Assembly (NCBI RefSeq): GCF_037055355.1
Contig: NZ_CP146350.1
Coordinates: 3,743,001 to 3,807,000 of the forward strand
DNA: 64,000 bases
Reading direction: 5' to 3'
Source: Streptomyces sp. DG1A-41
GTDB lineage: Bacteria; Actinomycetota; Actinomycetes; Streptomycetales; Streptomycetaceae
Shown: one piece after another, positions 35,609-51,041 of the stretch
Layout of the letters: the number at the start of each line of letters is the position of its first letter
How positions within the stretch are numbered: the stretch's first letter is position 1
Translations under genes and position numbers: made by a program
Notes under the pieces: model-generated
What the model was told of the DNA's origin: nothing
Databases searched by the model: none
Seen by the model: the letters and a program-made list of their open reading frames with translations, nothing else

Positions 35609-36586
35609 AGACGAGTAGTTCCGATGTGGCTCAGTGGTCGTAGGCGATGAGTGACCTGGTGACGGGTGCGCCGATGGTGCGGTTGTGCCAGATCGCGCAG
35701 GTCATCGCGAGGATCCGCTGGGCCACCCGGACGCCGACGCCTTCGATGGTGCGGCCGCCGTGCTGTTCGAGGTCGAGTTGGCCTTTGAGGGTGTCGTTGA
35801 CCGACTCGATCAGCTGCCGCACCGTCTTGAGCAGGGCTTCTGCGGGCTGTGGGGTGCCGCGGTTGCGGTAGGAGGGCCGCAGCAGGCTGATACCGCGGGC
35901 GGCGAGGAAGCGGTCGAGGTCGGCGGCGATGTAGCCCTTGTCGGCCAGGATCAGCAGGCCCGGCCGGGTGGCTGCCAGATGAGGTTCGTCATCGATCAGG
36001 GCGGCCAGGACCTGCCGCTCGTCGATCTTCGGGTCGGCCAGGGCCCAGGTCACGGGCAGGCCGGCCGGGGTGCACACCAGGTGCAGCTTCAGGCCCCAGT
36101 AGAAGCGGGAGTGGGAGCGGCAGTAGCCGTAGTTGGCCCAGCCGGCGAGGTCGGAGCGTTTGACGGTCTCGCGGGAGCGGGCGCACTCGACGGGCGTGGA
36201 GTCCACGATCCACACGTCGTCCAGCCATAGGTCGGTGTCCGCGGCCAGTGACCGGATGGCCCGCTTGACCAGGGGCAGAGCGGCTCGCAGCCGCTTGTTG
36301 TAGGCGGGCCGCTGCGGCAGGTACGGGAACATCCCGTGCAGGTGCGCGTGGGCAAAGCGCAGCCATCGGGCCTCGCAGTGGAAACCCAGCACGGCCTGGG
36401 CCACCGCCAGGGTCACCAGCTCGGCATCGGTCAGCCGCGGCGGACGCCCCCGCCACCGCAGGGTCTTCAAACGGTCATCGACATGCACGTACAGTGCCGT
36501 CAAGAGGGTGTCTAAATCGGTCGTCACAACCCGATGTTGGACACCCTCCCTCCGTCTGAGAACCCCGCATTCGGAACTACTCGTCT
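35609..36586. mobile_element. IS982-family insertion sequence
   Basis: 978 bases bounded by 16-bp perfect inverted repeats, AGACGAGTAGTTCCGA at 35609-35624 and its complement at 36571-36586. A 17-bp near-perfect direct repeat flanks it (35592-35608 and 36587-36603, one mismatch). The palindrome CTAG at each end leaves the exact boundary ambiguous by 2 bases. It carries one intact transposase. Confidence 0.85.
35631..36527 (-). CDS. IS982-family transposase
   Basis: A 298-residue DDE transposase. The N terminus has the family's LRWRGRPPRLTDAELVTLAV and YLPQRPAYNKRLRAAL motifs. Catalytic acids are in WIVDSTPVECARS and LLILADKGYIAADLDR, and a Glu near ESVNDTLKGQ. The frame is intact, starts 44 bases inside the right end and stops 22 bases inside the left end, so the element may still be active. 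Confidence 0.93.
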   Translation of the reverse strand: MTTDLDTLLTALYVHVDDRLKTLRWRGRPPRLTDAELVTLAVAQAVLGFHCEARWLRFAHAHLHGMFPYLPQRPAYNKRLRAALPLVKRAIRSLAADTDLWLDDVWIVDSTPVECARSRETVKRSDLAGWANYGYCRSHSRFYWGLKLHLVCTPAGLPVTWALADPKIDERQVLAALIDDEPHLAATRPGLLILADKGYIAADLDRFLAARGISLLRPSYRNRGTPQPAEALLKTVRQLIESVNDTLKGQLDLEQHGGRTIEGVGVRVAQRILAMTCAIWHNRTIGAPVTRSLIAYDH

Positions 36587-41073: not shown

Positions 41074-41625
41074 TCATACCGCCACCACACGAAGAGCGGG
41101 GTGCTCCTCGGTGTTGAGGTACACCCGTTCCTTCTTGCCCTCCTGCTCCAGCTCAACCACCAGGCGGTACCGGTACAGTCCGGGCTTCGCGGTGCTCAGT
41201 ACGGTGCCGGCCCAGTAGTAGTAGACCGGGGTCATCGGGGAGCGCATGCGGTCCGGGCCGCCGTAGATCTTGAGTTCGGTGAGCAGCTTGTTCTCGGCGA
41301 CGTCCTCTTCGTCGCCCTTCTCGGTGTCCAGGACGACGATGTTGTTGATCTTGGGCATGGGTGGCCAGGTGCCGTCCAGCCGCTTTTCCATGTCGACGGG
41401 GCGGATGATCCAGTTCAGAACCTGGCCCTGCTTGCAGACGGTCTCCAGCTTGTGTGTGCCCTGACCCTCGCCTCCGATGCTGTTGTCCATCATGTACATC
41501 GCGTCGCGCAGGGCCCCCGTCGCGACGGCCTTCTCCATGTCGACGAGCGTGACGATGTTGAGCTGGACCGAGTTCAGCTGGCCGGGGTTCTGCTTCTGCT
41601 CCGCGGGGTTGAGCGTGGTGCTCAT
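41074..41625 (-). CDS. PixA/AidA-family protein 1
   Basis: 183 residues, ATG after GAAGGAGAAACG. Matches the PixA/AidA inclusion-body protein family: NIVTLVDMEKAVATGALRDA, then MYMMDNSIGGEGQGTHKLET, then GQVLNWIIRPVDME, and a C-terminal strand block YYYWAGTVLSTAKPGLYRYR. No signal peptide or membrane helix. Rich in Met near the N terminus, as is PixA of Xenorhabdus. A ~20-residue acidic segment (DTEKGDEEDVAENK) is inserted before the second sheet. Last gene of the operon, 47 bases after its neighbour. Function in Streptomyces is unknown. Confidence 0.75.
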   Translation of the reverse strand: MSTTLNPAEQKQNPGQLNSVQLNIVTLVDMEKAVATGALRDAMYMMDNSIGGEGQGTHKLETVCKQGQVLNWIIRPVDMEKRLDGTWPPMPKINNIVVLDTEKGDEEDVAENKLLTELKIYGGPDRMRSPMTPVYYYWAGTVLSTAKPGLYRYRLVVELEQEGKKERVYLNTEEHPALRVVAV

Positions 41626-41672
41626 CAGCGTTTCTCCTTCGGATGCACCGTTGAACGGGCCGCGCGGCCTGG

Positions 41673-42104
41673 CTAACCGACCAGGGCGGGCGAGAGGGCG
41701 GTGGTGATGGGGTCGTTCCTCGTCCCCACCTGGAAGCTGATCCGGTAGGGGACGGCACCGTCGATGTCCTTCTTCACCGTGCCCGTCCAGTAGGCGACGT
41801 CGGTGTTCGGATACACCTTGCGCTCCGGTTCGCAGACGGTCTTGTCGATGTCGATTCCGTGGATCGCGACGTGTGCCTCGCACTCCAGGGCGATCGTGGT
41901 CCACAGCAGATGGTCCCCGCGCTTGACCTTGGTCTTCAGCTCCTGCGTGCCGAAGCCCGTCGAGCCGCCGGACTTGTTGGTGTCGTACAAATAGACCTCA
42001 CCGCTGGTGCTGTCGCTCGCCAGTACGCCAACGGCGTCCACCACAGCCGTGATGGTGATCGGTCGTGAGGTCGTCGTCTGCTTCTGCTTGGTGGACGTGG
42101 TCAT
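41673..42104 (-). CDS. PixA/AidA-family protein 2
   Basis: 143 residues, ATG after GAGGAGCAGCAG. Diverged member of the same family: ITITAVVDAVGVLASDSTSG, then VYLYDTNKSGGSTGFGTQEL, then RGDHLLWTTIALECEAHVAI, and DVAYWTGTVKKDIDGAVPYR. The N-terminal Lys/Thr/Gln tail (TKQKQTTTSRP) is likely flexible. No transport signal. Ten bases after member 3. Confidence 0.72.
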   Translation of the reverse strand: MTTSTKQKQTTTSRPITITAVVDAVGVLASDSTSGEVYLYDTNKSGGSTGFGTQELKTKVKRGDHLLWTTIALECEAHVAIHGIDIDKTVCEPERKVYPNTDVAYWTGTVKKDIDGAVPYRISFQVGTRNDPITTALSPALVG

Positions 42105-42114
42105 CTGCTGCTCC

Positions 42115-42963
42115 TCAGTGTTGGGATGCTGTGGGTTCTGTCGTTGCCGCGGGTGCCGCGGGTGCCGCGGGTGCGGTGCTGGGTTGGGACGGCAGGGAGG
42201 GGATGGGGAGATAGCCCATGCCCGCCTTGGTGAAGGCGTTGCGCTTGGGCTCGGTGGTGATCTTCAGGCTGGATCGGCACGTGAAGTTCACCGGCTCCCA
42301 GAGGATTTCGCCGTCGCGCTGCACCAGGTCGTGAAGCTGGATCCGCATCTCGTACGTGTAGGTGCCGGGCCGGGAGGTATCGACGGAGGCCGCCCAGTAC
42401 CAGCCGCCGGTCACCAGGTCCGGGGAGCCGTACTCGGCGGGATAGATGACCTTCTCGTCGACGGCCTGGCCGAAGACGTCGGTGATGGTCGGCGGCGGGT
42501 AGCTGTGCGCCTCGCTGCCCACTTCGGTGACGACGTGTCCGGTGACATCCAGCACCTTCTGGCCCCGGCTGCCGCGCCCGTGGGCATTGGCCCGCTTACC
42601 GAGCGCCTTGCGGAGGCGCTCCAACTCGGCGGCTTCAGGGGCGCTGGAGCCGTTGGCGATGGATTCCAGTTCGGTCAGCACCTCCTCGTCGCTGCACTGG
42701 GAGCGCTCGGCCACGTAGCCGCGTGGCACGCTCGGAGGGAGGGAACCGAGGCTGTACGGCAGCCAGTTGAGGACCTGCTCCGCCGCCTGCGAGCCGTCCC
42801 GCCAGTAGGAGCCGTGAATCGCGGTGACCAGGTTCTCGGTGCCCTGGTTCCGGGAACCGTACAGTTTCGCGTTGTCGAACCAGTAGGTGTTGCCGCTCAG
42901 TGTCCGCTCCGCCAGCGCGTTGGCGGTGTCCACGAGCACGATGATGCCTAGCTGCTGAGGCAT
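42115..42963 (-). CDS. PixA/AidA-family protein 3 with helical insertion
   Basis: 282 residues, about twice the family length. The start keeps the family pattern (LGIIVLVDTANALAERTLSG, YWFDNAKLYGSRNQGTENL). A helical, Glu/Arg-rich insertion follows at residues ~85-150 (EEVLTELESIANGSSAPEAA, ELERLRKALGKRANAHG). The second half returns to the fold (YWAASVDTSRPGTYTYEMRI). The tail is Pro/Ala-rich (APAAPAAPAATTEP), coded by a tandem 9-base repeat. ATG after GGAGAAAGG. Neighbour genes are its paralogs. Confidence 0.72.
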   Translation of the reverse strand: MPQQLGIIVLVDTANALAERTLSGNTYWFDNAKLYGSRNQGTENLVTAIHGSYWRDGSQAAEQVLNWLPYSLGSLPPSVPRGYVAERSQCSDEEVLTELESIANGSSAPEAAELERLRKALGKRANAHGRGSRGQKVLDVTGHVVTEVGSEAHSYPPPTITDVFGQAVDEKVIYPAEYGSPDLVTGGWYWAASVDTSRPGTYTYEMRIQLHDLVQRDGEILWEPVNFTCRSSLKITTEPKRNAFTKAGMGYLPIPSLPSQPSTAPAAPAAPAATTEPTASQH

Positions 42964-42991
42964 GAACCTGCCTTTCTCCTCGAGTGGTCGG

Positions 42992-43420
42992 TCACGCGCA
43001 CATCAATGCGGGCGAATCGATGAACATGACGCTGTTCTTGCCCTCGTACATCTGGAGTTCCAGGCGGTACTTGTAGGGCACGCCGATGCCCATGGAGGGC
43101 GGAACGATCCCGGCCCAGACGTCGAGGTCGAGCTTTTCTCCTTCCTCGGACCAGTCGGACGGCCGGTACCCGACGTGCCCGTTCGGCGAGTCGAGGAAGG
43201 TGATGCTCTTGATCTCCACCGGTGTCTGGAGGTCGACAGCGAGGGCCTGCCACTGCACGATCTGCCCCGGCCGTACGACGGTGCACAGGTCCGGAGTTCC
43301 CTGGCCCGCGCTGTGGAAGGAACCGTCGTCGATGAGCGACAGATTCCCGTTGTGCAGGGTGCGGTCGGATAGTGCCCCGATACTGTCCACCAGGGCGATG
43401 ATGTTGACTTGCGATTTCAT
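42992..43420 (-). CDS. PixA/AidA-family protein 4
   Basis: 142 residues, ATG after AGGAGTGTGAA. Closest to the compact family form: VNIIALVDSIGALSDRTLHN, DDGSFHSAGQGTPDLCTVVR, PGQIVQWQALAVDLQTPVEI and YKYRLELQMYEGKNSVMFID. First of the four paralogs in transcription order, 43 bases after the ligase-like gene. Soluble, without a signal. Function unknown; the family founder forms crystalline inclusion bodies. Confidence 0.75.
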   Translation of the reverse strand: MKSQVNIIALVDSIGALSDRTLHNGNLSLIDDGSFHSAGQGTPDLCTVVRPGQIVQWQALAVDLQTPVEIKSITFLDSPNGHVGYRPSDWSEEGEKLDLDVWAGIVPPSMGIGVPYKYRLELQMYEGKNSVMFIDSPALMCA

Positions 43421-43463
43421 TTCACACTCCTGTTCTGACAGGCATTCAGCTTTTTACCCAGGG

Positions 43464-45035
43464 CTATTGCCCACGGTCGCGGACCAGAGGCACCTTTCCC
43501 ACGTCGGTACGTTCGATCTCGGATGCCCCCTTAAACACGAACTGCAGACGGAAGTCGTATCCGGTCTTCTCGATGGACTCCGGATTCGCCTCGCCTTCGT
43601 TGAACAGGGACAGGGCCTGGGGCAGCGCGTTCAGGAAGACGCGCCGCAGGCCGTACGGACCGAGCGCGGTGTCCATGTGGTACGTCACGGCCTGCGGGTC
43701 GTCGACGGACACGAGAAGCGTGAGGATCTTCGCCTCGCGGTGATTGACGAACTGGATCTCGTGCGCCACGGCGTCGAGGTCCACGGCACCGGCCGCCCGC
43801 AGGTCCTCGCCCAGCGCTGTCAGGGCCCGTGGGGCCAAGTACTGGCTGTCGTTCAGGTGCAGCACGTCGCCGGTGCGGCCGGCGAACTCGAACTGCTGCG
43901 CCTTCAGCCCCGGGCCGTCCCGCCGCGGCCTGCGGATCATCCGGTCGCCCAGTTTGAGCCGCAGCAGCGGAGCCTCGTGGGCGTGCAGCCGCGTGACGAC
44001 CAGCTCGCCCTCGGCGCCCTCGGCGACCCAGCGCCCTTGTTCGTCGACGATCTCCACCAGGTGCAGGCCGGGCACGGCGGACAGTTCGGCTGCGGCGGGG
44101 TCCAGCTGGAGCCCGATGGTCTCCGCCTGGGTGGCCGCGAAGTAACTGAGGACTTCGACGTTCGGGTAGACGGCCCGCAGGTCGGCGCGCTTGCGCTGCG
44201 GCAGCACCCCACTGCCGTACAGGGCGAGACGGAAACTCTCCCGCGCCGCCTGGTTCATGCCCGCGCCGAGATCGCTGAGAATGGCGACACCGGCGGTGAT
44301 CCCCATCAGGGCCTTGGGCCCCGGGTAGGAGAACATGTGCTCCAGCACCGGCGCGGTGACGGGCCCCGCGCCGACGTAGTTGACGCCGGGCACGTTCTGC
44401 AGCACCCCGCCGACCATGGTGCCGCTGCTCCACATCTGGTAGTCGGCCAGCGTGGTGTACAGCCACTTCGGTCCGGCACCGGTGAGCCGGGGAGTGAGCT
44501 GGTACGTGCCCATGAACTGACCGGCGACCTGGTACGTGTCCCACAGCTCCCGTAGCGAGTACACCGTCTCCAGCGGGCACCCGCTGGAGGTGCCGCCGCT
44601 CGCCACGATCTCGAAGCCGCCATGGTCGAGCGGCACGACCATGCCCTCTCGGCCGCCCATGAAGAAGTCGCGCTGGACATCCTTGTCCGCGAGCGGAATC
44701 GCCTGCCATTCCTCGAAACTTTGCGGCGCTCCCGTGATTCCGGCGCCGTGCAGCCTGCTGCGCCAGAGCGGATTGAGCTGGACGGTGTGGACCATTTGCT
44801 GAAGCCGACGCAGGACCAGGGCGTCCTGCACCTCGTGTGCTAGTTCGCTGTACGGCGTCCCGAGGACGCGCGCACACTCCCGCATTTTGCTCGCGAAGGG
44901 TGGGAGGTTCGCCACGAGGGCGACGGATTCGGGTTTCCATTCCCAGTCCGGGATGAGCCAGTTGATCAATTCAGCCGGGTTCTCCGGGTTCCCGGGAGCC
45001 GTGACGGTCTGCGGGACGGCGGTCGTGGTCATCAT
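43464..45035 (-). CDS. PaaK-like (phenylacetate-CoA ligase family) adenylating enzyme
   Basis: 523 residues. Middle and C-terminal parts match the PaaK branch of ANL adenylating enzymes: phosphate loop IVASGGTSSGCPLETVY, an AATQAETIG region where AMP is held, GELVVTRLHAHEAPLLRLKL and GDR, then FAGRTGDVL. The N-terminal ~90 residues are less typical. Such enzymes activate carboxylates as acyl-AMP and pass them to CoA or an amine. The first ATG overlaps the decarboxylase stop (ATGA at 45032-45035), so it is coupled. No carrier protein is present, so an acyl-CoA or amide product is more likely than NRPS loading. Substrate unknown. Confidence 0.8.
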   Translation of the reverse strand: MMTTTAVPQTVTAPGNPENPAELINWLIPDWEWKPESVALVANLPPFASKMRECARVLGTPYSELAHEVQDALVLRRLQQMVHTVQLNPLWRSRLHGAGITGAPQSFEEWQAIPLADKDVQRDFFMGGREGMVVPLDHGGFEIVASGGTSSGCPLETVYSLRELWDTYQVAGQFMGTYQLTPRLTGAGPKWLYTTLADYQMWSSGTMVGGVLQNVPGVNYVGAGPVTAPVLEHMFSYPGPKALMGITAGVAILSDLGAGMNQAARESFRLALYGSGVLPQRKRADLRAVYPNVEVLSYFAATQAETIGLQLDPAAAELSAVPGLHLVEIVDEQGRWVAEGAEGELVVTRLHAHEAPLLRLKLGDRMIRRPRRDGPGLKAQQFEFAGRTGDVLHLNDSQYLAPRALTALGEDLRAAGAVDLDAVAHEIQFVNHREAKILTLLVSVDDPQAVTYHMDTALGPYGLRRVFLNALPQALSLFNEGEANPESIEKTGYDFRLQFVFKGASEIERTDVGKVPLVRDRGQ

Positions 45036-46605
45036 TCATTTCCTGTTCGTTGGTGCGGCGTCCGTTCGGCGCCGAGCAGTTCCTGCCCGGTACGGCGGAT
45101 CTCGTCGAGCAGCATGCGGAAATGCGCGGTGGTGATCTGGTGGTTCATCATGACGACGCGCAAGGCGGCGACATCGTCCACGTCGACCTTGGAGACGAAG
45201 AAGGTGCCACGCTGTTTGACACGGTCCCGGATCTCCACCTGGAACCGGTGCAGGTCCTTCTCGTCCAGTTCGGCCGGATGATGGCGAAAGCAGAGGATGT
45301 TGGCTTCGGGGGCATGGAGCGTACGGAAATCCGGCTCGCCCTCGAGAATGCGGTGGGCTTCCTGGGTCAGTCGACACAGATAGTCGGTCTTCTGCGCGAA
45401 GAGGGCCGGGCCGAACACTGCCCAGAGGGTCCAGAGCGTCATGATCATCGGGCGCTTGGTGCACTCGAAGTTCTTGTCGCCGCTGTCGAGTTCGGTGTAG
45501 ATGTCGGGTTTCTCGTCGAACACGTAGCTCGCCTTCTGGCGGAACGCGCCGAGGCTGTGCTGCCGGTCCCGGTAGAAGAGCATGGTGCACGGGGCGGGCA
45601 CGTACATCATCTTGTGCGCGTCCCAGGTCAGGGAGTCGGCCAGCTCGATTCCGCGCAGCCGGTCCCGAAGCCGGTCCGACACCAGCAGGCTCGCCCCGTG
45701 CGCCCCGTCCACATGCAGCCACAGGTTCCGCTCCCGGGCGAGAGCGGCGAGTTCGTCGAGCGGGTCGAAGGCGCCGACGGTCGTGGTACCCGCGGAGGCC
45801 ACCAGACAGAACACCTTGAGCTGCCGTGCCTCGGCCTCGTCGAGAGTGGCTCGGGCGCCCTCCACGCAGATCTGACGCCGGGCGTTGAGCGGCAGCCGGA
45901 CGATCTGCCCGGCGCCGATGCCCATCACCCCGGCCGCCCGCTCCACGCTGTAGTGCACCTCCGCACCGACTGCGATCGCGGGCCGGCCCCGGCACCCTGC
46001 GCCGCGGCTCCCCTGGCCCAGTACGAGGGGAAGTGCTGGTTGCGTGCCGCGAGCAGGGCGGTGAGGTTGGCCAGTGACCCGCCCGAGGTGGTCACCATGC
46101 CGAAGGTGCCGGGTTCCCAGCCGATGAAGCGGTTCAGCTCCTCGGCCATGATCCGCTCCGCGACGTTGGGCAGCTGGCCGGCCTCGTAGAAGGAGGAAGG
46201 CTGGTTGACGACCGAGCTGACCAGGTCGACGATCGCGGCGAGGGGCACGACCCCGGAGAACTGGCGTCCCATGTACCCCGGCGAGTGCACCGGGAGGCCG
46301 GTTCTGATGTACAGGTCGAGGATGGCGCCGAGCCGCTTCGCGTCGAACTTCGCGACGTGCCGGGACTCGGTCGTCATCAGTGCACGAGCGGCCCGCAGGA
46401 GCACGGCCGGGTCGGTGAGGTTCAGCCCGCGCACGGAGTGGTCGGCCAGATGCTCTTCCAGCAGGGCGAGGGCGGTTTCGGAACTTTCGCGGAACAGTCG
46501 CGGATCGAATGTCGCGACGAAGTCACCGTCCGGGCACGGCGGCAACGGTGGGGCCACGTCCGCTGTGGCCAGAGGGACGGGCGGGGGATACCGGGAATCC
46601 GTCAA
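45032..46605 (-). pseudogene. PLP-dependent group II decarboxylase (one frameshift)
   Basis: About 524 residues once repaired. TTG start (LTDSRYPPPVP) with GGAG upstream. Group II amino-acid decarboxylase fold: TTSGGSLANLTALLAARNQH, VASAGTTTVGAFDPLDELAA, LHVDGAHGAS with the PLP-pairing Asp, and LTWDAHKMMYVPAP with the PLP lysine. Nearest groups are diaminobutyrate, glutamate or aromatic amino-acid decarboxylases. One C is missing near 45984: GAGP should continue AIAVGAEVHYSVERA. The rest is intact, so a sequencing error is plausible. It heads the pix operon and likely supplies an amine. Confidence 0.82.
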
Positions 46606-46994: not shown

Positions 46995-47738
46995 TCAGTC
47001 CAGCTGTACGCGATCCATCAGCCCCGCCGCCGTGAACGCCGCCACCAGATCCTGACGGCCCTCCGTGAAGTGGGCCCAGCCGTCATAGTGGACGGGGACG
47101 ATGTGGCGGGCGCCGAGGATACGGGCGGCTTCCGCCGCCTGGGCGCTGTCGAGGGTGAGGAGCCGGTGGCCCAGGAGAGGCGTGCGGACCGCCCCGGCGA
47201 AAAGGACGGCCGTGTCGACCGGGGCGAAGCGGTCGGCGATCTCCCTGACCAGCTCCAGCTGGGCGTTGTCCCCGCTGACGTAGACGGTGGGCAGGCCCTC
47301 GCCGGTCAGCACGAAGCCCACCACCTGGCCGACGATCGGCTCCAGCTCCTCCCTCTTGCCGGGGCCGTGCAGCGCCGGTACGCCCGTCACCGCCAGCTTG
47401 CCGCCGTAGGGGCGCTCCAGTTCCATCGACTCCCAGTCCCGCAGACCCCGCGCGGTGCCGCCCAGGCGAACCGCACCGCTCGGGGTCGTGAGCGTGAGGG
47501 GGACGGACGCCAGCAGCGCCCGGCCGGAGTCGTCCAGGTTGTCGACGTGCTCGTCGTGCGAGAGCAGTACCACATCGATCCGGCCCAGGTCGGCCGGGGC
47601 GGCCGTGGCATGGGCTGTCTTCACCAGCCCCTGGTCGTAGGAGCGGGGGGAGTCGAATGTCGGGTCGGTGAGGAATCGCAGGCCGCCGTACTCGATCAGC
47701 GCGGTCGGCCCACCGTACACAGAGACGGATGTGTTCAT
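46995..47738 (-). CDS. Metallo-beta-lactamase-fold hydrolase
   Basis: A 247-residue MBL-fold protein of the UlaG-like type. N-terminal strand FLTDPTFDSPRSYDQG gives the Asp, LLSHDEHVDNLD is the HxxxHxDxx-like metal motif (first position His-Asp-Glu-His), ALHGPGKREELEP and YVSGDNAQLEL follow, and VPVHYDGWAHFTEGRQ supplies the last His. ATG at 47738. Substrate unknown; some relatives act on lactones or phosphodiesters. It lies upstream of the pix operon on the same strand and shares a promoter motif with it. Confidence 0.88.
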   Translation of the reverse strand: MNTSVSVYGGPTALIEYGGLRFLTDPTFDSPRSYDQGLVKTAHATAAPADLGRIDVVLLSHDEHVDNLDDSGRALLASVPLTLTTPSGAVRLGGTARGLRDWESMELERPYGGKLAVTGVPALHGPGKREELEPIVGQVVGFVLTGEGLPTVYVSGDNAQLELVREIADRFAPVDTAVLFAGAVRTPLLGHRLLTLDSAQAAEAARILGARHIVPVHYDGWAHFTEGRQDLVAAFTAAGLMDRVQLD

Positions 47739-47956: not shown

Positions 47957-48600
47957 AGGCCGTGGTGGGCTGGCCGGCAGTGCCGGTGATCCGGTCCCAG
48001 ATCACGAAGCGGATGGTCATTTCGGCGCGGTGGTCGGAGGCTGTCCTGAGGTGGCGGCGGGCCGGAAGTGGGGTGAGATGCCGCTGTGCGGACAGGAACC
48101 GCTGGGCGCCACCGGTACCGCGGAGCCCTTCATCGCGCGTTCGCGCTGCCGGGTGGGCTGGTGGCTGTTCTCGGCCCGGTTGTTCAGGCCCTTGTGGGAG
48201 CGGTGCTCGACCGAGGGCATGACCTCACGGTGAGCGGCGCCGTATGAGCGCGGCTTGTCGGTGACGACCACCCGGGGCACCCTGTGGGTCTTCTTCATCA
48301 GTCTGCGGAACCGCCTGGCCGCGGCGGTGTCCCGCCGGTTCTGCACGAGGACGTCCAGGATGTTGCCGGCGGCCTCCACGGCCGCCGCAGGTACCGCTGC
48401 TCGCCGTTGACCTTGGTGAAGACTCCGTCCAGGTACCACTTGTCCCCCGGGACGGGGCCGACGGCGACGCGGTCCGTTGGCGTAGGCCTGGCCGAGCTTG
48501 GCGCACCGGCGGCGGACGGTCTCGCAGGAGACGACGACAGCGCGTTGGCACGTCCCACCTCGCCGATCACTCCAGTTGATTCTTGGCGGTCATCAGCGTG
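47957..48600 (-). pseudogene. Decayed IS6-family transposase
   Basis: Minus-strand pieces of an IS6/IS26-like DDE transposase in changing frames: DVLVQNRRDTAAARRFRRLM, VPRVVVTDKPRSYGAAHREV, MPSVEHRSHKGLNNRAENSH, QPTRQRERAMKG, and after another shift GISPHFRP and MTIRFVIWDRITG. Upstream parts (GDKWYLDGVFTKVNGEQRYL) are in yet another frame. Several indels and no clear terminal repeats, so it is a dead remnant. Confidence 0.8.
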
Positions 48601-50615: not shown

Positions 50616-51041
50616 CTCCTTTCCCCGGTCTCCGCTTCCCGGTCGCCATTTCCCGGTCCCCGCTGCCAGGCCCTGTTACCCCGTCTCCGCTGCCCGGCCT
50701 CCGTTACCCCGGTCATGCAGAGAGCCGGGCCCCGGCGCCCGGGGGGAGGGACGCCGAAGCCCGGCTTTGGGAGAGTCCCGGCGCCGGGGGGAGTGCGACG
50801 GGACTTGGCTCTGGGGGGCCGGGAGCGTGGCCCCGGCCCGAACTGGTGGGCCCGGAAGTCTTGTTCCCGGTGCCCCGCGGGTTGAAGCGGCGTTACATCG
50901 CCATGTTTGCGCGGTCTTTCGCCACCCGGCGTACGCGGCGACTCCCGGGCGCACGCTGTCCGTCCTCCACAGGCCGTGGGACGACACCCACAGGCCCCGG
51001 GACGACTCGTACGCCCGGGCGTCCACCGGCGGACACCGGCG
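50616..51041. other. Gene-free GC-rich spacer
   Basis: No coding frame with protein-like content. The first 100 bases repeat a loose TCTCCGCTTCCCGGTC-like unit. Two further GC-rich stems are possible around 50725-50790. This is the 3' side of hrdD. Confidence 0.5.

Follow-up and report, generated by a model that had tools for sequence, protein, structure and literature searches.

A fixed six-gene operon pairing a decarboxylase and a PaaK-like enzyme with four MakC/PixA-type proteins in Streptomyces sp. DG1A-41 and other bacteria

Introduction

MakC and MakD, accessory proteins of the makDCBAE operon of Vibrio cholerae (NF049870; PDB 8rqy, 6tct), and the PixA/AidA inclusion-body family (PF12306; PDB 4lzk, 4pib) have solved structures, but their function is not established. 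The available excerpts of one account describe MakC and MakD as cytosolic and as dimeric in crystals, with MakC forming large complexes in cells and both proteins affecting how their operon partners are produced and secreted (PMC11484084). Excerpts of another describe the PixA-type protein Bnr1 as a proposed DNA mimic, and place the first identification of the family's inclusion-body proteins in Xenorhabdus (PMC9060813, citing Goetsch 2006). Here, we describe an operon that ties four relatives of these proteins (A1 to A4) to two assayable enzymes, a group II pyridoxal 5'-phosphate (PLP) decarboxylase (DC) and a PaaK-like adenylate-forming (ANL) enzyme (LIG). It lies in a 64,000-nucleotide stretch of the 8.99-Mb genome of Streptomyces sp. 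DG1A-41 (genome G000; contig NZ_CP146350.1, positions 3,743,001 to 3,807,000; hereafter, the window), with the order DC-LIG-A1-A2-A3-A4 on the minus strand.

Compared with MakC and MakD, the A proteins fall under the family's 110-bit cut-off, are four paralogs instead of two, and have a PLP decarboxylase and an ANL ligase as operon partners; compared with the PixA/AidA family, none of them reaches PF12306. Like glutamate decarboxylase, CSAD, GADL1, and the desferrioxamine/diaminobutyrate decarboxylases, DC has PF00282 and an invariant PLP lysine, His and Asp, but unlike the named group II enzymes it reaches no NCBIfam equivalog cut-off. LIG keeps the motif residues of PaaK-type ANL enzymes, a group that includes NatL2/BomJ, and its profile matches PaaK (4r1l, 436 residues), but it is nearly 90 residues longer and has no Pfam match over cut-off. 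All parts belong to known superfamilies, and the open-access literature, to which our search was confined (subscription papers and preprints were outside its scope), yielded neither a description of the operon nor a counterpart to its combination and role, in agreement with the original prediction that no described pathway joins these genes. A fixed six-gene unit in at least four phyla offers a concrete handle on the role of the MakC/PixA fold, and points to a hidden small-molecule pathway in Streptomyces and its relatives, on rhizobial plasmids and in marine Bacteroidota.

Results and Discussion

Conservation of the six-gene unit

Alignment of LIG against a GTDB-based collection gave 74 loci, which together with the window and five shorter loci from the genus Streptomyces made 80; six profiles, derived from 11 loci, served to map them. 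Since L003/L042, L005/L040, L006/L044, and L131/L058 look like the same contigs, the 80 correspond to about 77 distinct loci. DC and LIG were followed by four small proteins at 74 of the 80 loci. The remaining six were cut off: one ran into a contig end, and five stopped at 1.5 kb but, fetched at greater length, held all six genes. The order DC-LIG-A1-A2-A3-A4 was found exactly at 68 loci. Two Sphingomonas loci are arranged likewise, except that their fourth small protein best fits the A1 model, and four from Flavobacteriaceae (L088, L092, L094, L099) carry two successive DC-LIG pairs ahead of A1-A4, both pairs keeping the PLP lysine and the ligase motif residues. The recurrence of the order across phyla is more than chance, and the order is not peculiar to this genome. 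Such a fixed gene order across phyla points to a shared, undescribed biochemical system.

Isolates carrying the operon belong to Actinomycetota, Pseudomonadota, Bacteroidota, and Acidobacteriota (Granulicella), and one metagenome bin each from Chloroflexi and Candidatus Aminicenantes also holds it, although bins may contain foreign contigs. The carriers span at least four phyla and come from soil, roots and the sea. In a quick LIG tree, the phylum label changes 5 times against a minimum possible 4, so that the ligases of most phyla are grouped, with exceptions. The distribution is patchy: strong LIG matches (>830 bits; the next scored 39) were present in 6 of 295 Streptomyces-genus genomes, our own included, and A4 was found in 1 of 396 genomes of the phylum (again our own) and in 5 of the 54 genomes from the genus to which L055, a Nonomuraea-type locus, belongs. 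LIG also occurs in seven plasmid-collection records (five Bradyrhizobium, one Sinorhizobium, and one 11.9-Mb Nonomuraea replicon), and the three of the seven that were mapped contain all six genes. On two of these three, a conjugative Bradyrhizobium elkanii plasmid and the Sinorhizobium plasmid, an annotated cysteine hydrolase gene follows the operon.

A remnant was seen at L133 (genome G737, 1458-2639), where a DC fragment is fused in one frame to an A4 fragment, and LIG and A1-A3 were not found in the stretch fetched.

The decarboxylase and the ligase

In the window, DC (46605-45032, minus strand, as for all genes of the operon) consists of two overlapping open reading frames (ORFs). The N-terminal piece (45925..46605), with a putative TTG start, covers profile positions 26-200, and the C-terminal piece (45032..45958), which contains the PLP lysine motif DAHK, covers positions 189-513. 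Because the two pieces occupy different frames, the gene is broken in the assembly, and it is the sole DC split into two overlapping frames among the 80 mapped loci. The frame change reflects either sequencing error or true decay; accordingly, the system is either inactive in this strain or mis-sequenced. The C-terminal piece exceeds the PF00282 cut-off (143.6 bits, 8.6e-42), and the full-length family profile matches as well. Among DC copies, the PLP lysine is present in 84/84, and the stacking His, the Asp, and a Gln that corresponds to the Q of NQLSTG in glutamate decarboxylase 1 are each present in 83/83; these counts and those for LIG below omit copies in which a site is missing because the gene is truncated or, in the window, split. 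By profile comparison, glutamate decarboxylases 1 and 2, GADL1 and CSAD come closest among solved structures, and bacterial enzymes rank between them. The best NCBIfam equivalog for DC, represented by its L039 relative, was PanP, whose 166 bits fall short of the 606-bit cut-off. The predicted PLP decarboxylase is thus borne out by PF00282 and the PLP lysine, but not as a single ORF.

LIG (43464..45035, 523 aa) scores 13.8 bits against Pfam AMP-binding, under the cut-off of 29.9, and the profile of its family matches PaaK 4r1l (2.8e-13) and, weakly, AjiA1 6wuq (9.6e-4). The P-loop Thr is kept in 84/84 copies, and the Glu, Asp, Arg and A10-type Lys in 83/83 each. Judged by these matches, LIG is a remote relative of PaaK, a qualified outcome for the proposal of a PaaK-like ligase: the profile homology and the motif residues bear it out, the AMP-binding cut-off does not. 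AjiA1 is presumably close to NatL2. The latter, a PaaK-type enzyme, is described in the available part of its report as yielding an ester, by coupling an acid to an acceptor other than CoA (PMC7204872).

The four small proteins

LIG overlaps DC by four bases (ATGA), and gaps of 43, 28, 10, and 47 bases separate it and the successive genes for A1 (42992..43420, 142 aa), A2 (42115..42963, 282 aa, a MakC/PixA fold with an inserted helical hairpin), A3 (41673..42104, 143 aa), and A4 (41074..41625, 183 aa); coordinates, strand and spacing are as originally predicted. The NCBIfam family MakCD (NF049870) matches A1 to A4 at 2.7e-10, 7.9e-10, 2.9e-19, and 1.4e-14, with scores of 38.9-69.3 bits, and it matches 28 of 28 aligned members of the A1 family. 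A3 is the nearest of the four to MakC/MakD, and its family profile matches 8rqy at 5.2e-20. When A3 was compared by profile with the other three, it gave 99.6% for A1, 99.2% for A4 and 98.5% (over 60 columns) for A2; the four are thus related to each other. Single-chain models of A2 and A4 predict the beta-sandwich of MakC, MakD and PixA, so that these proteins join a shared fold to their MakCD homology. In contrast, PF12306 found only A3 among the window's proteins, at E 0.17 and 12.5 bits (cut-off 21), and matched 0 of 28 members in each of the four A families at E<=0.01. Membership of the PixA/AidA family, as first proposed, holds for the PixA fold, which is predicted despite the missed score, but not for the PF12306 cut-off.

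MakCD-type matches are confined to the operon: in the whole genomes of 20 of the 74 loci from the ligase alignment there were 76, at 3-4 per genome, all inside the fetched operon stretch and none over the 110-bit cut-off, and the four in our own genome all lie within the operon.

This genome's single true PF12306 gene (G000:C1:4757987-4758475) lies outside the operon, directly behind a thiamine-pyrophosphate enzyme gene (PF02775/PF00205) and with an amine oxidase nearby; when 120 relatives were searched, it was found in this genome only. At an Actinomadura locus (L101:10122-10872), A2 occupies two overlapping frames and may be a further broken member.

Hydrolases and other neighbouring genes

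About 809 kb of flanking sequence was searched with a profile built from isochorismatase-type neighbours. A gene of this type was found at 14 of the 80 loci, within 600 bases at 12, within 1 kb at 13, and at 2.1 kb in one case, and PF00857 matched all six that were tested, one of them from a plasmid. It stands upstream of the operon or downstream, there on either strand, in rhizobia and other Pseudomonadota, Nonomuraea, Streptomycetaceae, and one Streptosporangium. A second candidate accessory gene, encoding a metallo-beta-lactamase (MBL)-fold hydrolase (PF12706, 3.2e-17), lies upstream of the operon in the window (46995..47738, minus strand; the ORF extends to 47888, and an inner ATG was used as the start). 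Its relatives adjoin the operon elsewhere, with strong matches at eight loci including the window, seven of them within 500 bases and five from Streptosporangium or Sphaerisporangium. The two hydrolase types never occur together (0/80 loci). Within 1.5 kb, a response-regulator-like cluster has 10 members, chiefly from one Streptomyces group and Flavobacteriaceae, and the remaining clusters are mostly limited to close relatives. PADLOC defence models matched none of the six proteins at E<=0.001 (DC being represented by the L039 relative).

Proposed function and alternatives

The pairing of a decarboxylase with an adenylating ligase has the logic of an acid-amine coupling, and the amidase-type hydrolase next to some copies is consistent with a cleavable product. 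We tentatively favor, as a reading that is possible but short of probable, a co-inherited cytosolic unit, borne on chromosomes and some plasmids, that makes and handles a small molecule. From the protein families we infer that DC would convert an amino acid to an amine or omega-amino acid by decarboxylation, its substrate probably being acidic (of the glutamate, aspartate, or cysteine sulfinate type). LIG would convert a carboxylic acid to its acyl-adenylate and pass the acyl group either to the DC-made amine, forming an amide, or to a different acceptor, such as CoA. The four A proteins may join through their sheets, in the manner of the MakC/MakD dimers, into a hetero-oligomer that holds both enzymes or binds the product, and the neighbouring isochorismatase-type or MBL-fold hydrolase, where present, might cleave the product or a by-product.

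Several observations weigh against this reading. The window's own DC is broken, and the TSGG motif of DC has Thr for Ser, a one-residue difference, in 2/83 copies. LIG is remote from all families in the searched libraries (the best in NCBIfam scored 35.7 bits, against a cut-off of 300), so that amide formation is one of several options, and LIG may be a plain CoA ligase. The known ties of the fold are non-biosynthetic, namely the PixA inclusions, the virulence-linked accessory roles of MakC/MakD and AidA, and the DNA-mimic proposal for Bnr1. Finally, by profiles, 58 of the 80 loci have neither hydrolase, although at 11 of the 80 the flank is shorter than 1 kb on one side or both. A more ambitious form of the same reading, a carrier-free machine in which A1-A4 form a hetero-oligomeric shell or carrier where amine and activated acid are joined and held, as a widespread signal or defence metabolite system without a described relative, seems to us rather unlikely.

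Among the alternatives, catabolism survives best, though we think it improbable. Here, LIG would be an ordinary acyl-CoA ligase and DC a degradative decarboxylase, with A1-A4 sensing or sequestering the substrate. Among solved relatives of LIG, PaaK ranks first, and a class I aminotransferase gene lies between LIG and A1 at 3 of the 80 loci, an insertion that may represent one gain, since these loci are close in the LIG tree. Two Nonomuraea-type loci (L055, L060) have, 450-564 bases upstream of DC, a gene for a 637-aa protein that by eye resembles copper amine oxidases (cluster F38). However, besides the six operon genes, no single neighbour occurs at more than 14 of the 80 loci, although a degradative set may be scattered among them.

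Protein modification appears more doubtful. LIG would attach an activated carboxylate to one or more of A1-A4, or activate a carboxylate of an A protein for the DC-made amine, and the A proteins, as acceptors or carriers, would stand in for a phosphopantetheine carrier. A single LIG accompanies all four small proteins, library searches matched no carrier-protein family among the operon proteins, and conservation is highest in A4, with a mean column identity of 47% compared with 32-41% in the others; but the C-termini of A1-A4 differ in length and sequence, with no conserved tail, and we know of no precedent for such an acceptor role in the MakC/PixA fold.

We give still less credence to storage, the original interpretation, in which A1-A4 would form crystalline or paracrystalline inclusions holding the product. 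The fold is shared with PixA (4lzk), of the inclusion-body family, to which the Xenorhabdus proteins belong (PMC9060813, in the part available), but MakC and MakD, which are nearer relatives, are described as cytosolic, with no inclusions reported for them in the available part of PMC11484084. By analogy with these dimers and with the large complexes of MakC, four divergent paralogs in a fixed order would suit a defined hetero-oligomer better than an aggregate or homopolymer crystal. On the whole, the original observation was confirmed in part, and its interpretation drew partial support.

Least probable is that A1-A4 act as regulators or chaperones of unlinked secreted or DNA-binding partners while DC and LIG merely supply a signal, a role that the effects of MakC/MakD on their partners and the Bnr1 proposal would allow (PMC11484084 and PMC9060813, available parts), but the constant partners in 74/80 loci, counting locus-linked ones only, are DC and LIG.

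Ends of the operon

A stem-loop 3' of A4 (40910-40885, minus strand), with an 11-pair stem and a T-rich tail, probably closes the operon as an intrinsic terminator. Its stem folds at -31.1 kcal/mol (z -6.0), and the case rests on this fold, because a stem scan of the region returned 4 terminator-like sites where 3.5 would be expected. Beyond it are a DeoR-type regulator gene and a sugar PTS cluster. Transposase genes flank the operon stretch at 35631-36527 (DDE_Tnp_1) and 48017-48439 (DDE_Tnp_IS240), and the Streptomyces small RNA Scr3202 (Rfam) is located at 50718-50808 on the minus strand of the window.
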